Below, one piece after another: positions 13,925 to 19,368 of a stretch of 22,973 nt of DNA. The position numbers and the translations under genes were made by a program. The number at the start of each line of letters is the position of its first letter. Within the stretch, counting starts at the first letter, position 1. The DNA lies in the IMG/VR virus record IMGVR_UViG_3300046000_011226, positions 1 through 22,973 of that record; one strand, written 5' to 3'. The DNA is from a virus. The notes under the pieces are model-generated. The model searched no databases. It had not been told where the DNA came from and saw only the letters and a program-made list of their open reading frames with translations.

Positions 13925-16900
13925 TCAAGAATCCCACCGCTGCGAGTCCACGCGGAGCCACGCCCACCCGCCCTCGTCGTGCTCCTCGGCGACGGTGCGC
14001 CGGGAGGGCGACGGGAGCGGCTCCTCGTCGGGAAGTGTATCTCCGCGCGGTGATACCGTGGGACCGAAACCCCTTTCAGATACTCTTCTTCTGTTAGGGG
14101 TTTCGGTCCCATTGGTATCTCCGCTCGGACATATCGTGGGACCGAAACCCCTATCAGAGACACCCACAGGTGGGTGCGTGTCTGTCTCTGTCGCAGGGCA
14201 GAGCACACGCACGGCGGCCGCGACGTCGTGCGGCACCTCCCGCTCGCCTCGCTCGTACCGCTGCACCGTCTTGCGGGAGACGCCTAGCAGCCCCGCTAGA
14301 GCCTCCGCCGTCAGCCCGAGGGCGGTTCTAGCGGCCAGCACCTCCGCGGCCCCTATAGCGCCCTCAGCGCGCGCCGGGCGCCCCACCGGCAGGACGCGGA
14401 CGTCGACGGCGCGGCCCTGCCACCCGGACGGCGCGACGGTGCCGACGTGGAGCTGTCGCCCTGGTCGCGTGCGGTGGACGGTGCGGAGTCGGCCGTGCGC
14501 CTGCCCGAGCTCGGCGCCCGCGAGCGCGTCGAGGCGGCCCTCGACGTCGAGCCCGAGGTAGGCCGCCTTGACGCGCTCGACGCCCAGGTTGGGGCGCGGG
14601 TCCATCAGCGTCAGGGTGGCGTCGCAGTCGGCCATGTGGTCGAGGCCTTCGAGCGCCTGATAGTGCCCGAGGACGTAGCGGCCTTGCCACCCGGCGAGGA
14701 TCGGCGCGAGGTGAGCGCGCGCCCGGTCGAGCGACGCGGCGGTGCCACGGCAGGCCTTCCACGCCTTGCGCGGGGCGGGGTCGTCGGGCGCGAGGGTGTG
14801 CGCGATTGCGGCCTCGATCACCTGCGGGGCGATCAGCCCGACGGAGCGCGTGGCGCCGCCCTCCGCGAGCCACGCGATAGCCCAGCGCAGCGCGGGGAGG
14901 ATCGCGGGCCAGTCGGGCAGTCCTCGCGGGAGCCACGTCGCGCGGCTGGCGCGAGCGGCGAGGATCGTCCGTGCGATCGGTGCGCCGTCGGGGACGCGGA
15001 GCGCGGTGACGGGCGGCGCCCACCCGAGCAGCTTCGTGAGCGCCGGGACGTGCAGCGCCACGTCAGCGTCGAGGATCACCACGGGACCTGGGTGCGCGAG
15101 GGCGGTGGTCAACTGCGCGTTGACGCCCACCACCACCGCGGCGCGGTCGTCGTCCTCGCCGTCGAGGGCGGCCGCGTAGGGCGCGGTACGTAGCAGCCCC
15201 TCGACGGGCGCGACGGCGGTGAGTCCGCGCCAGAGCAGGTCGAGCACGCGTGACGCGGCGCCGAGCTCTGCGGCGCGCGCCGCGTTGACGCGTGCGACGG
15301 CGAGCGCGCTCCACCGGATCGGCGGTGCCTTCGATCGGGCGTCGGGGCGGATCGCGCCCGCGGCGGCGTCCAGCACGGCGGCGGCGGTGCCCTCGATCCC
15401 GGCCGCTTCGAGCAGGTCCGGCGACACCTCGTGCGCGTACGCCTCGACGGCGTGGCGTAGGTACGTGAGGCCCTCGGCGACGGAGCCGGGCGCCACGAAC
15501 CACCGGCGCCACGCGTCGAGGGCGGGCGCGAGCGCGACGGAGTACGCGGTGACGAACTGGTCGAGGTAGCGCACCGCGCCGTCCAGTTGGTCGAGGGTGA
15601 CGCGCTCGGTGAAGAGAGGGTCTCCGGGCTCGTCGACCACCAGCGTGCCGGAGGTGCCAGCGTACCCGGAGAGGGCGCTCGCGAGGCCGTGCACACCGAC
15701 GACGAGGGACGCGTCCGGCGCGCCCTCCTGCCCGGCGTAGGCGGGGCAGCGGGCACGCTCCGGGCACGGGTCGCGGCCGCGGCCGTCGCACAACTCCTTC
15801 GAGACGCTCTGCCCACCCGCGGCGAGCGGCGCGGCAGAGTCGGAGTAGATGCACGTCAGCGAGCCGTCGGGCTGTGTGTGCGAGGTGGGCGAGTAGATCC
15901 TGAGCGAGCGCCCGGGGAGTTTCGCGGCGATCTGCTTGCCCAGCTTGTGTGTCGGTACGCTGATCGCCATGCGCGAGCCCGGTGCGGCGCGTCCCTCGAT
16001 CGGCGGGAGTGTGGCCGCGTGCGCGAGCACGGCTTGAGTCTTCCCGGTGCCGGGCGGCGCGGCAATGCACGTCACGCCGTAGGCCTCGCGGATCGCGTGC
16101 GTGATTGCCATGCCCGCGGTCGCGGCGGGCACCTCGACGCCCGGGACGGCGGTGAGTTGCGCGCGCACGGCGACGGCCTCGGCGGTGGCGGCGACGCCGG
16201 CGAGATGCAGCGCGAGGCGCGCGGCGACACCCACGAGCGGGACGCCCTCGCCCGCGGCGGCGGTGAGCTGGTCGATCACCCGCGCCTCGGCGGCGGTGCG
16301 ACGCGTGGCGTAGTCGAGCGCGTCGGCGACGCCCGGGAAGTCCGCGCGGAGGGTGGCGTATCCGCTGACGGTCTGCCCGGTGGCGTACCGTGTGACGGTC
16401 GTCGACGCGAGCGCGGTGCGGTCGTCGAGCAGGTAGGCCCACGCCGGGTCGACGAGGTGCGCGCGGGCGACGACGGCGGGGACGTACTCCAGCGGGCAGC
16501 CGCGCGAGCACAGCGCCCCGGCGAGCGCGAGGTAGCAGCGGCGCCAGTCGCGGGTGACGGTGTCGCGGATCGCGGCGCCGACGGCGTCGGCCACCGGGTG
16601 CCACTCGGGCGGTGAGTCGGCGGCGACGGCCGGGAGCGCACCGACGGCGTCAGCGCGGACGATCACGCGAGGGAGCGCACCGCCGCGGGCGACGCGTGCC
16701 GGGAGCGCGCGCGCGGGCGGCGCCTCGACGGCGCGGAGTCGCGAGAGGTCGACGAGGTCCGGCGCGCGACGCTCGCCCTTGTAGACGCACCTCGCGACGC
16801 GCATCAAGTGTCCCCAGTCTTTGCACTCCAGCGCCGACGCCCACGCGCCTTCGGCCACGAGCGCATGGAGCCACGCGAGGAGACGCGGCTCGGCCTCGTC

Positions 16901-17413
16901 GACGGGGAGCCACGTTGCGAGCGGCTGGAGCAAGCGGTAGCCCTTCGGCGACAGGTAGAGCCCGCAGGTCTGGAGGGACGGCGCGGAGTCCCACAGCGCG
17001 TCGAAGGCGGCGCGCGTCTCGGGTGTCCAGGGCAGGTGCCCGGGCGTGTCGATGTCGGCGATAAAGCACGTCTGGAGCGCGTCGAGGCCCTGCGCGCGGA
17101 GCCACGGCAGCGACTCCTTGGACACGCGCGGTGTAGCAGGAACCGGCACACCCTGACGGCACACGACGTAGCCCGAGACGAGAGCACCCGTGCGCCACGT
17201 CCTGCCGCCCGCGGCCTCGGCGAGCGTCGTGTGCTGCTCGGCCCTGACGTCGTGGCGGTTGCCCTCGGAGCCTCGCGGCTCGCGCCAGTCGGAGGTGTGC
17301 ACCGTGCAGCCCTTGCGAGCGCACCCGGCGCTCGGGACGCCGGGCGAGTGGAGCGTCATCACGCGCTGGTCGCTGATCCACATGAGGGGCGTGTCGAGGT
17401 CAGCGGGGCGCAT
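13925..17413 (-). CDS. Primase (AEP-like)–helicase fusion with C-terminal XRE helix-turn-helix
   Basis: 1162 residues, ATG at 17413 with GGAGAG close upstream. The N-terminal region carries AEP primase-like motifs: IADIDTP (Asp120, Asp122), LSPKGYRLLQP (154-164) and a KDWGHLMRVARCVY segment (198-211). The helicase-like region has Walker A PPGTGKT (453-459), Walker B LVVDEPGD (591-598), a VVILDAD strand (778-784), a 'GHYQALEGLDHMADCDATL' block ending DPRPNLG (916-944) and motif-VI-like QAHGRLR (971-977). Four cysteines (521, 542, 550, 556) lie between Walker A and B. Residues 1024-1060 are an XRE-type HTH (ALGLTAEALAGLLGVSRKTV). The tail repeats a 16-residue unit at 1085-1100 and 1111-1126. 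It likely primes and unwinds phage DNA. Assignments of AEP and helicase are by motif only. Confidence 0.75.
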   Translation of the reverse strand: MRPADLDTPLMWISDQRVMTLHSPGVPSAGCARKGCTVHTSDWREPRGSEGNRHDVRAEQHTTLAEAAGGRTWRTGALVSGYVVCRQGVPVPATPRVSKESLPWLRAQGLDALQTCFIADIDTPGHLPWTPETRAAFDALWDSAPSLQTCGLYLSPKGYRLLQPLATWLPVDEAEPRLLAWLHALVAEGAWASALECKDWGHLMRVARCVYKGERRAPDLVDLSRLRAVEAPPARALPARVARGGALPRVIVRADAVGALPAVAADSPPEWHPVADAVGAAIRDTVTRDWRRCYLALAGALCSRGCPLEYVPAVVARAHLVDPAWAYLLDDRTALASTTVTRYATGQTVSGYATLRADFPGVADALDYATRRTAAEARVIDQLTAAAGEGVPLVGVAARLALHLAGVAATAEAVAVRAQLTAVPGVEVPAATAGMAITHAIREAYGVTCIAAPPGTGKTQAVLAHAATLPPIEGRAAPGSRMAISVPTHKLGKQIAAKLPGRSLRIYSPTSHTQPDGSLTCIYSDSAAPLAAGGQSVSKELCDGRGRDPCPERARCPAYAGQEGAPDASLVVGVHGLASALSGYAGTSGTLVVDEPGDPLFTERVTLDQLDGAVRYLDQFVTAYSVALAPALDAWRRWFVAPGSVAEGLTYLRHAVEAYAHEVSPDLLEAAGIEGTAAAVLDAAAGAIRPDARSKAPPIRWSALAVARVNAARAAELGAASRVLDLLWRGLTAVAPVEGLLRTAPYAAALDGEDDDRAAVVVGVNAQLTTALAHPGPVVILDADVALHVPALTKLLGWAPPVTALRVPDGAPIARTILAARASRATWLPRGLPDWPAILPALRWAIAWLAEGGATRSVGLIAPQVIEAAIAHTLAPDDPAPRKAWKACRGTAASLDRARAHLAPILAGWQGRYVLGHYQALEGLDHMADCDATLTLMDPRPNLGVERVKAAYLGLDVEGRLDALAGAELGQAHGRLRTVHRTRPGRQLHVGTVAPSGWQGRAVDVRVLPVGRPARAEGAIGAAEVLAARTALGLTAEALAGLLGVSRKTVQRYERGEREVPHDVAAAVRVLCPATETDTHPPVGVSDRGFGPTICPSGDTNGTETPNRRRVSERGFGPTVSPRGDTLPDEEPLPSPSRRTVAEEHDEGGWAWLRVDSQRWDS
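14037..14161. repeat. Repeat cluster inside primase-helicase gene, candidate replication origin (iterons)
   Basis: Core GGGACCGAAACCCCT occurs exactly at 14060-14074, inverted at 14096-14110, and again direct at 14138-14152. Two 47-base direct repeats (14037-14083 and 14115-14161; 41 of 47 bases identical) are spaced by exactly 78 bases. The inverted copy sits between them, and flanking GATACC/GGTATC and CAGA/TCTG also pair. In 14051-14160 I count 57 GC of 110 (52 %), against 70-73 % in the adjacent 60-base blocks. The element is in frame and forms most of the protein tail. Location in a replication gene resembles lambda ori within gene O. Origin activity is an inference. Confidence 0.5.
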
Positions 17414-17780
17414 GGACTCTCCTCGTAGCGATAGCAGCGCGCACCGTCTCGGCCGCGTCGATGGCGTTCTCCGCGAGGGTGCGCGAGGCGTCGAGGCGCA
17501 GCGTCAGGGCGACGCACCCGAGGGCTGTCATGCGCTCGCGCCAGTGCACCTGCTCCGGTGTCTCGCGGGTACGCGCGCCCTTCACTTCGAGCTCGACGCG
17601 CCAGCCTTCGGGGGCGACGACTCCGGTGAGGTCCGCGGCGCCGACGGGCGCGCACTCCACCCAGGTCCCGCGGTCGGTGCGGACTTTCCCGGCGGGCTGT
17701 CGCCAGAGAGTGACGCCGCAGCGCGCGGCCGTGATTGCGACGCGCAAGGCGTTCGAGAAGTCCTGCTCTGATAGGCTCAT
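17400..17780 (-). CDS. VRR-NUC domain nuclease
   Basis: 126 residues from ATG at 17780, in an ATGA overlap with the helicase stop; it overlaps the primase-helicase start by 14 bases. The pattern is that of stand-alone phage VRR-NUC proteins: GVTLWRQPAGKVRTDRG (the 'R.n.G....' strand), GAADLTGVV (Asp50 as the 'sDl.g' acid), VELEVKGAR (Glu63/65, Lys67 as the 'E.K' motif) and TPEQVHWRERMTALGCVAL (the 'qt.Q..w...l...Gg' helix-strand). These residues correspond to the PD-(D/E)xK-like active site. Such enzymes cleave branched or structured DNA. Its neighbours are a helicase and a primase-helicase, which suits a role in replication-intermediate processing. Confidence 0.8.
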   Translation of the reverse strand: MSLSEQDFSNALRVAITAARCGVTLWRQPAGKVRTDRGTWVECAPVGAADLTGVVAPEGWRVELEVKGARTRETPEQVHWRERMTALGCVALTLRLDASRTLAENAIDAAETVRAAIATRRVHAPR

Positions 17781-19213
17781 TGCGTCACCGAGGGGCGGGG
17801 ATAGTAGCGCCGTTCGAGGTCCGTAAACGCGGGCCACGCTCCGAACTTTTCCCGGTAGCGGTGGCGCGCGGCGCCCACCTTCCAGCCGCGCGAGGCGGCC
17901 GTCGCCACGGTGCCTTCGTACCACGCGCGGCGCACCGCCACGGGGAGCGTCGAGGGCGGCACCACCTCGACGAGCGCGCCGTCCACGGTCTCGATCTCCT
18001 CGCGCGGCGGCGCCTCGAAGACGTGCCCGCACTCGGGGCACACCAGCGTCCCGGTTGGGAGCGCCGCGAAGCAGCTCGGGCAGGTCTTCACCGGGGCCGC
18101 GCTCGCGCGCTTCTTCTTCGATTCGAGGGACCACTCCTGATCGTCCTGCGGGAAGCCATGCGCGAGCACGCAGCCCGCGTGGTCGAGGAGCAGCGCGGGC
18201 GTGTCGCCGTCGGGCCGCAGCCCGCGCCCGGCCATCTGGAGGTACAGGCCCTTGCTCTTCGTCGGCCGCGCGAGCACCACGCACTTGCAGCGCGGCAAGT
18301 CCCACCCCTCGGTGAGCACGCCAAAGTTCGCGACGACGGTAGTCTCGCCCGTCGCGAGTCGCGCGAGGATCGCAGCGCGCTCGTCGTCGTCGGTGGTGCC
18401 GTCGAGGTGCTCGGCGCGCACGCCCGCCTCGACGAACTGCGCGACGATTGCCTTCGAGTGCCCGACGCTCGCCGCGAAGACGACAGTGGTGCGCGAGGCG
18501 GCGTGCTCCTGCCAGTGAGCGACGATATCGCCGACGAGCTCGCGGCGGTTCAGCGCCTCGTCGAGGTCGTGCAAGTTGTAGTCGCCCGCGGTGCTCTTGA
18601 TCGTCGACAGGTCCACCGGGTGACGCGTGCTGTACACCGTCGGGACGATCAGGAATCCCTCGGCCGCGAGGTCGCCGAACTGCGCCACCTGGACGAGGGC
18701 GCCGAAGGCGTCGCCGAGTCCGCGCCCGTCGCCGCGGCAGGGCGTTGCGGTGAGGCCGACGACGACTGCGCCCGGGTAGGATTCGAGGATCCGCTCATAC
18801 GTGCGCGCGGTGGTGTGGTGCGCCTCGTCCACGAAGATCAAGTCGGCGGGCGGGTGCTTGCGCCCGACGAGAGTCTGCACCGACGCCACTTGCACCGGGG
18901 CGTGCGGCCGGGCGCGCGGGTCACCCGCGAGGATCGTCCCGAGGTGCTCGCGCGCGAGGCCGCTCGCGAGGAGCTTCGAGTAGCACTGGTCGATGAGCTC
19001 GCGGCGGTGCGCCAGGAAGAGCGCGCGCTTCTGCTTGCGGACGGCGCCCGCGATAATCGCGGCGGCGACGACGGTCTTTCCGCCGCCCGTTGGCAGCACC
19101 ATCAGGACGCGCTTGACGCCGCGGGCGATCTCGGCGCGGACGGCGGCAATGCCTCGCTCCTGGTACGGGCGGAGTTGCAGGACTGGGGGTGTCGGTGGTA
19201 GGGAATCGGTCAT
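17777..19213 (-). CDS. SF2 DEAH helicase with C-terminal zinc ribbon
   Basis: 478 residues from ATG at 19213. A strong GGAAGGAGG eight bases upstream decides this start over an in-frame TTG at 19237. Motifs in order: LRPYQERGI (14-22), Walker A PTGGGKT (41-47), LAHRRELIDQ (68-76), DEAH (129-132), TATP (155-158), TEGWDLP (301-307) and QMAGRGLRP (326-334). A CPSC...CPEC zinc ribbon lies at 378-395. The layout matches phage UvsW/type III restriction-like SF2 helicases, which remodel branched DNA in replication and recombination. The last 60 residues hold a short helical domain (YEGTVATAASRGWKVGAARHRYREKFGAWP), a pattern often found after the zinc ribbon in these phage helicases. Confidence 0.9.
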   Translation of the reverse strand: MTDSLPPTPPVLQLRPYQERGIAAVRAEIARGVKRVLMVLPTGGGKTVVAAAIIAGAVRKQKRALFLAHRRELIDQCYSKLLASGLAREHLGTILAGDPRARPHAPVQVASVQTLVGRKHPPADLIFVDEAHHTTARTYERILESYPGAVVVGLTATPCRGDGRGLGDAFGALVQVAQFGDLAAEGFLIVPTVYSTRHPVDLSTIKSTAGDYNLHDLDEALNRRELVGDIVAHWQEHAASRTTVVFAASVGHSKAIVAQFVEAGVRAEHLDGTTDDDERAAILARLATGETTVVANFGVLTEGWDLPRCKCVVLARPTKSKGLYLQMAGRGLRPDGDTPALLLDHAGCVLAHGFPQDDQEWSLESKKKRASAAPVKTCPSCFAALPTGTLVCPECGHVFEAPPREEIETVDGALVEVVPPSTLPVAVRRAWYEGTVATAASRGWKVGAARHRYREKFGAWPAFTDLERRYYPRPSVTQ

Positions 19214-19368
19214 CGGCTGCGCCTCCTTCCGGCGCAATAGTCGGTCACATGTCCGAGCGGTTGCACCCGCTGCGGACAGCTATTGCTACCGCGGGACGCG
19301 TCGGATTGCAAGCGCGTAGCAACACGCCAGAAGTTGCACGGCGTCGCTCACCGTGGTATTCGCCGGGT
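19214..19368. promoter_or_regulatory. Divergent control region between helicase (-) and HTH gene (+)
   Basis: This 155-base gap separates divergent genes and is the only sizeable noncoding stretch. It contains an imperfect dyad at 19251-19277 and a second dyad TTGCTAC (19283-19289) with GTAGCAA (19316-19322). TTGC also recurs at 19261, 19306 and 19334. For the plus strand, TTGCAC (19334-19339), 17 bases, then TATTCG (19357-19362) is a weak -35/-10 candidate that would start RNA at about the ATG. These are candidate operators and promoters only. Confidence 0.45.
19251..19277. repeat. Imperfect dyad (operator or leader hairpin) upstream of helicase
   Basis: Left arm GTCCGAGCGG (19251-19260) pairs with CCGCTGCGGAC (19267-19277) with one extra base; the centre is six bases. 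It is about 38 bases before the helicase start, upstream of its strong ribosome site. It could be an operator for the adjacent HTH protein or a hairpin in the helicase leader. Which one cannot be told from sequence. Confidence 0.4.

Follow-up and report, generated by a model that had tools for sequence, protein, structure and literature searches.

The repeat cluster in the virus sequence analyzed here (IMG/VR record IMGVR_UViG_3300046000_011226, positions 1 to 22,973; the whole 22,973 nt stretch is referred to as the window) forms a palindromic element that is most likely the replication origin of the phage, recognized by the protein that the surrounding gene encodes. We put the probability of this reading, which draws on sequence comparison, at roughly 0.7. 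The same comparisons identify the repeats as this phage's form of a hairpin that ends the same gene in about 30 (pro)phages, mostly myxobacterial. To our knowledge, the origins of most phages known from sequencing alone have not been identified.

Features of the window are listed in Table 1. A 15-base core, TGGGACCGAAACCCC, occurs in three exact copies at 14059-14073 (+), 14097-14111 (-) and 14137-14151 (+), as described in the initial annotation, and the two 47-base direct repeats have the offset given there but are not exact copies of each other. A search with the 16-mer TGGGACCGAAACCCCT, allowing up to three mismatches, gave three matches in the window, all inside the cluster (0.04 expected), and none of 100 shuffled windows contained three. 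The arms of the canonical hairpin (22 nt) are 91% complementary around a 9-nt loop, and the second arm can also pair with the third copy (95%, 25-nt loop), which excludes the first hairpin; two mutually exclusive hairpins, formed by copies one and two or two and three, had been predicted. The local drop in GC was likewise confirmed, with 54.4% at 14037-14161, the lowest of any 125-base stretch in the window (71.4% overall), against 75% and 70% in the flanking 60-base blocks. Single copies of the 15-mer were found in 16 other viral contigs, which by our own estimate is the chance expectation in so large a collection.

Table 1. Features of the replication gene and its repeat cluster in the window.
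Feature	Position	Strand	Basis or remark
Replication initiator gene, 1162 aa	13925-17413	-	ORF, AlphaFold model, fold matches
AEP primase catalytic region, residues ~60-235	16709-17236	-	Conserved columns and fold match
XPD/DinG-type SF2 helicase, residues 428-1010	14384-16132	-	Fold matches and cysteines
XRE-like HTH, residues 1022-1071	14201-14350	-	HTH_31 E 7.8e-8, HTH_3 E 1.5e-7; helices in model
Tail, residues 1075-1162, coded through the hairpin cluster	13928-14191	-	Predicted disordered, pLDDT <50
Second SF2 helicase (phrog_16), just upstream of the initiator gene	17777-19237	-	E 7.5e-105
First 47-base direct repeat	14037-14083	+	Sequence comparison
Second 47-base direct repeat	14115-14161	+	87% identical to first, 78 bases apart
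Canonical hairpin, 53 bp	14059-14111		Arms 14059-14080 and 14090-14111, AT-rich center; form common to relatives
Third arm copy	14137-14158		Alternative hairpin with 14090-14111

The entire cluster lies within the ORF of the putative initiator, for which sequence and predicted structure indicate an AEP primase, an XPD/DinG-type helicase, an XRE-like helix-turn-helix (HTH) and a disordered tail. The AlphaFold model (pLDDT 78.7) is good apart from some linkers and the last 88 residues. The primase region carries the conserved residues D120, D122, G158, R160, Q163, D199 and R205, and a fold search placed RepB' (3h20) first (E 3.3e-4, probability 0.96) with other AEPs next, S-2L PrimPol, LigD and CAPP also being matched; given TM-scores as low as 0.19 and 0.25, the RepB' match suggests the same fold class rather than close kinship. 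The helicase region matches DinG (6fws, E 2.5e-11) and XPD (6ro4_B, Z 15.6 over 496 aligned residues), and its cysteines C521, C542, C550 and C556, nearly invariant and predicted to be of the Fe-S type, complete the SF2 core with Fe-S cysteines by which the sequence and model would place it in the XPD/DinG family. The HTH match ends at base 14201, about 40 bases from the repeats and not the roughly 75 first estimated. A sequence search of the PDB with the initiator returned HTHs only, no relative of the protein was found among the named phages and plasmids searched, and none of the named phages searched was related at the DNA level. The fusion of AEP primase, XPD/DinG-type helicase and XRE-like HTH was not found in two surveys (PMC5862659, PMC11981726). 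Most relatives with a long enough locus likewise carry a second helicase gene upstream. In the window, terS (about 430 bases downstream) and terL follow the initiator gene, and the remaining genes include a Mu-like portal and protease, capsid, terminase and tail sheath.

Comparison of homologous genes, a check proposed in the initial annotation, showed that the repeats are not confined to this phage. Five viral contigs are close relatives (93-100% in best segments) and carry the same triple core, and L030 (60% identical) has a different core, TGCGCCCGAAACCCC, at the same place, in one inverted and three direct copies. A genome scan gave 17 loci in MAGs, nearly all of them Myxococcota or deltaproteobacterial, so the host of the window phage is probably a myxobacterium; a further viral scan added loci, and class- and phylum-wide protein searches added a few more. 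About 30 homologs, from Myxococcota prophages and viral contigs, have, at the 3' end of the gene, a hairpin with long arms, for example TGGTACCGAAACCCC in L033, TGTAACCGAAACCTC in L045 and TGTTCACGGGATCCC in L066. In 24 of 32 loci the top-ranking inverted repeat is the one at the gene end (-400 to +300 of the stop), where 2.3 would be expected (P ~3e-22), L046 and L060 probably being one gene counted twice; because the homologs are related, P values in this analysis overstate independence. Except for L116 and L107, the statistics were devised once the pattern had been noticed, and this location window and the arm registers (set by hand) were fixed after the data had been seen. Among the other eight loci, the family hairpin is present at lower rank in L036, L041 and L064, short or interrupted in L040, L042 and L077, weak in L047, and has one degenerate arm in L034. 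The top palindrome near the stop in L067 is unrelated, the family hairpin coming after it at +161. L116, a 36% identical homolog with the HTH that was found later, is an out-of-sample case: 9 bp past the stop it has perfect arms of 21 bp, the best in its locus, which fits the prediction of a gene-end hairpin. The remote homolog L107 is without the HTH and has no hairpin, and in L038 a hairpin is present and an HTH is not recognizable.

In 19 of 28 loci the whole palindrome measures 49-58 bp, and hairpin centers are AT-rich (68% versus 32% in the locus). The unit common to the family is a single inverted pair, extra arm copies being confined to L030-L032, L068 and the window's group, where a third copy has been added; the lambda-like direct iterons first envisaged are not the family's form. 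A site inside the gene, as originally described, holds for the window's group, and the hairpin is also in frame in L030-L033 and L068, but in most of the distant homologs it is found across the stop codon or as much as 264 bases beyond, making the internal position secondary. Other repeats were seen in these loci. L067 (9083-9133) has the near-perfect unrelated palindrome, with 24-bp arms and a 3-nt loop, 44 bases past the stop. In L040 the hairpin region is tandemly duplicated, 19 and 201 bases past the stop, with 80-nt exact repeats 182 apart, while L034 (6195-6362) has a very long GC-rich inverted repeat with 61-bp arms, upstream of the initiator gene and unrelated to the hairpin family.

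Several features of the cluster point to DNA as the conserved entity. The cores are identical across the six contigs of the window's group, and 4-fold sites differ by 0-10% in the cluster versus 12-23% in the gene (few sites). The segment between copies two and three (window 14075-14096) has one orientation in the window, L024 and L029 and the opposite one in L025-L027, a difference that turns NRRRVS into FRYSSS in the protein while the DNA palindrome is kept; it looks like a flipped hairpin loop among sister phages. Over 16 positions in 27 loci, arm complementarity is 90.5% Watson-Crick, a value that alone proves little, the arms having been chosen for pairing; it is the variety of pairs, with several types at each position, that carries the argument.

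The arms also vary in step with one part of the protein. Arm similarity is correlated with HTH similarity (Mantel r 0.44, p 0.0005, n=17), but not positively with that of the primase (r -0.20) or helicase (r -0.15), and the arm-HTH correlation survives the removal of close pairs and shows the same trend with 28 loci. The loci L036, L037 and L039 are instructive, as their helicases are 83-89% identical and their linker and HTH regions only 46-53%; the outer arms alone differ, each with its matching complement, against a conserved background of inner arms, loop and flanks. This is the pattern expected if the HTH binds the outer arms. The earlier suggestion of a self-recognized origin in the initiator gene therefore has good comparative support in its main idea and is retained in part: among these sequences, about 30 relatives have the element after the gene, and the arms appear to co-vary with the HTH only, whereas the iteron form and the place inside the gene are not general.

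An element at a primase-helicase gene, with an AT-rich center and arms matched to the HTH, would most simply be an origin, and the replication module counts in favor of this, with its RepB'-like AEP fold, its XPD/DinG helicase and the second helicase upstream. The HTH would bind both arms, at half-sites about 38 bp apart, and load the helicase domain at the AT-rich center; the opened strands, possibly folded as hairpins, would then be primed by the RepB'-like primase and the primers extended by host enzymes. In the window's group the reading frame may have absorbed the element, which also gained a third arm, and the protein would thereby have acquired its disordered tail. GC skew, suggested as a check, did not show the usual pattern of an origin in relation to the hairpin in five longer contigs, where gene direction confounds the signal.

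The arrangement resembles that of several known replicons. In the Sulfolobus plasmid pRN1, a stem-loop 3' of the AEP-helicase gene orf904 is required for replication and is movable, and its structure rather than its letters is conserved (PMC4234260). The likeness includes an AEP primase, a helicase and a C-terminal DNA-binding domain in one protein, and a stem-loop just downstream of the gene in which letters vary and pairing is kept. However, pRN1 has an SF3 helicase, a winged helix and a 58-nt loop, in place of the XPD/DinG-type SF2 helicase (Z 15.6 over 496 residues), XRE-like HTH and short AT-rich loop seen here, and, unlike in pRN1, the arms in the window's group lie inside the ORF with a third arm. 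By analogy the window system would work like a pRN1-type replicon, sharing its AEP primase domain, yet it is classed apart because its helicase is of another class. RepB' of RSF1010, the closest solved fold to the primase domain, is a primase that recognizes a hairpin (ssiA/ssiB) (PMC4434180), but RSF1010 uses three separate proteins, with iterons at oriV bound by RepC (PMC4234260); here a RepB'-like primase is part of one fused protein, with one palindrome, in place of the separate RepA helicase and iteron-binding RepC. The Bordetella phages BIP-1 and BPP-1 also encode an AEP-helicase protein, of the D5_N/DUF5906 helicase type, with a downstream stem-loop proposed as origin (PMC4234260). As a positive control of the inverted-repeat scan BPP-1 was weak, the proposed stem-loop ranking about tenth in the genome. 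The strongest inverted repeat in BPP-1 (L131, 26607-26710) has 22-bp perfect arms and a 60-nt loop, and is found downstream of the replication protein gene, some 470 bases away. In phage lambda the origin lies within gene O, and the P4 alpha protein acts with iterons, so that both initiators bind repeats in or near their own genes, as proposed here. Their repeats are direct iterons and not one inverted pair, lambda O has no primase or helicase, and P4 alpha has a Toprim primase; a lambda-type origin, with several direct iterons in the initiator gene plus an AT-rich region, is not what this family has.

The main rival to an origin is an operator, at which the HTH would control transcription of its own operon or of the late genes that follow, with the origin elsewhere. 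XRE-like HTHs are typically repressors, the element sits between replication and packaging genes, and co-variation of arms and HTH would suit any HTH site. Nevertheless, we consider an operator unlikely, since the site is at the 3' end of the gene and not at a promoter, the packaging genes lie at varying distances (TerL 1.9-4.7 kb), the HTH is fused to a primase-helicase, and long complementary arms with AT-rich centers are more than an operator needs. A site bound by an HTH could also serve regulation, which counts against the origin. Strong stems at a gene end would equally suit a transcript hairpin that stops or processes the message, but no T run follows the arm as it would in an intrinsic terminator (mean 2.0 T in 10), arm mismatches show no wobble signature or G-U excess (A-C 9, G-U 8), an Rfam search gave no match anywhere in the window, and the arms track a DNA-binding domain; such an RNA element is very improbable.

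A packaging site (like cosB or pac) for the small terminase subunit would recall lambda cosB, with its three repeats near terS, and in the window the two terminase genes do follow. In relatives, however, the distance to terS and terL varies while the hairpin stays at the initiator gene, showing no fixed link to terS, and it is the HTH of the initiator that the arms track, which leaves this explanation with very little to commend it. Least credible of all is a mobile palindromic element inserted in frame, similar to the Rickettsia palindromic element, which had been offered as an alternative from the start and would account for the in-frame position and the added disordered tail: the hairpin is at the same place in about 30 divergent homologs, arm sequences differ among them and recur at no second place in any of the 32 loci, and six host genomes had no scattered copies above control level.

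Some hosts and contigs hold more than one member of the family. MAG SKS1.bin3 (L037, L039) and MAG bin-17204 (L034, L040, L045) each contain several related prophages, in some of which the outer arms differ, as expected if co-resident prophages need distinct origin specificities. Two differing copies of the gene, with their own hairpins and different arms, occur on one 82.6 kb contig (IMGVR_UViG_3300035523_000117; L064 and L074), which probably represents two (pro)phages, and a frame change splits the gene in L074. In G155 (IMGVR_UViG_3300014202_000303, 43.4 kb) the gene spans the contig ends, so the genome is probably complete and circularly permuted, and a short hairpin lies 12 bases past the stop. 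L042, whose record title names a gammaproteobacterial MAG contig, and the viral contig L076 are both 52,618 in length and apparently the same sequence, and the host label is uncertain.

Taken together, the data would allow a one-protein initiator with a specificity code, in which the HTH determines the palindrome that serves as origin, and joint changes of HTH and outer arms would let prophages that share a host replicate without cross-talk; the hairpin would be extruded as a cruciform, to be primed by the RepB'-like domain, and the flipped loop in sister phages would be a scar of this mode. As a whole this fuller scheme is tentative, and we think it rather doubtful. An origin as proposed here would be a candidate that can be read from sequence across a family, along with the part of the protein that should read it, and L036, L037 and L039 would offer ready-made swaps for following joint changes of specificity in an initiator and its origin.
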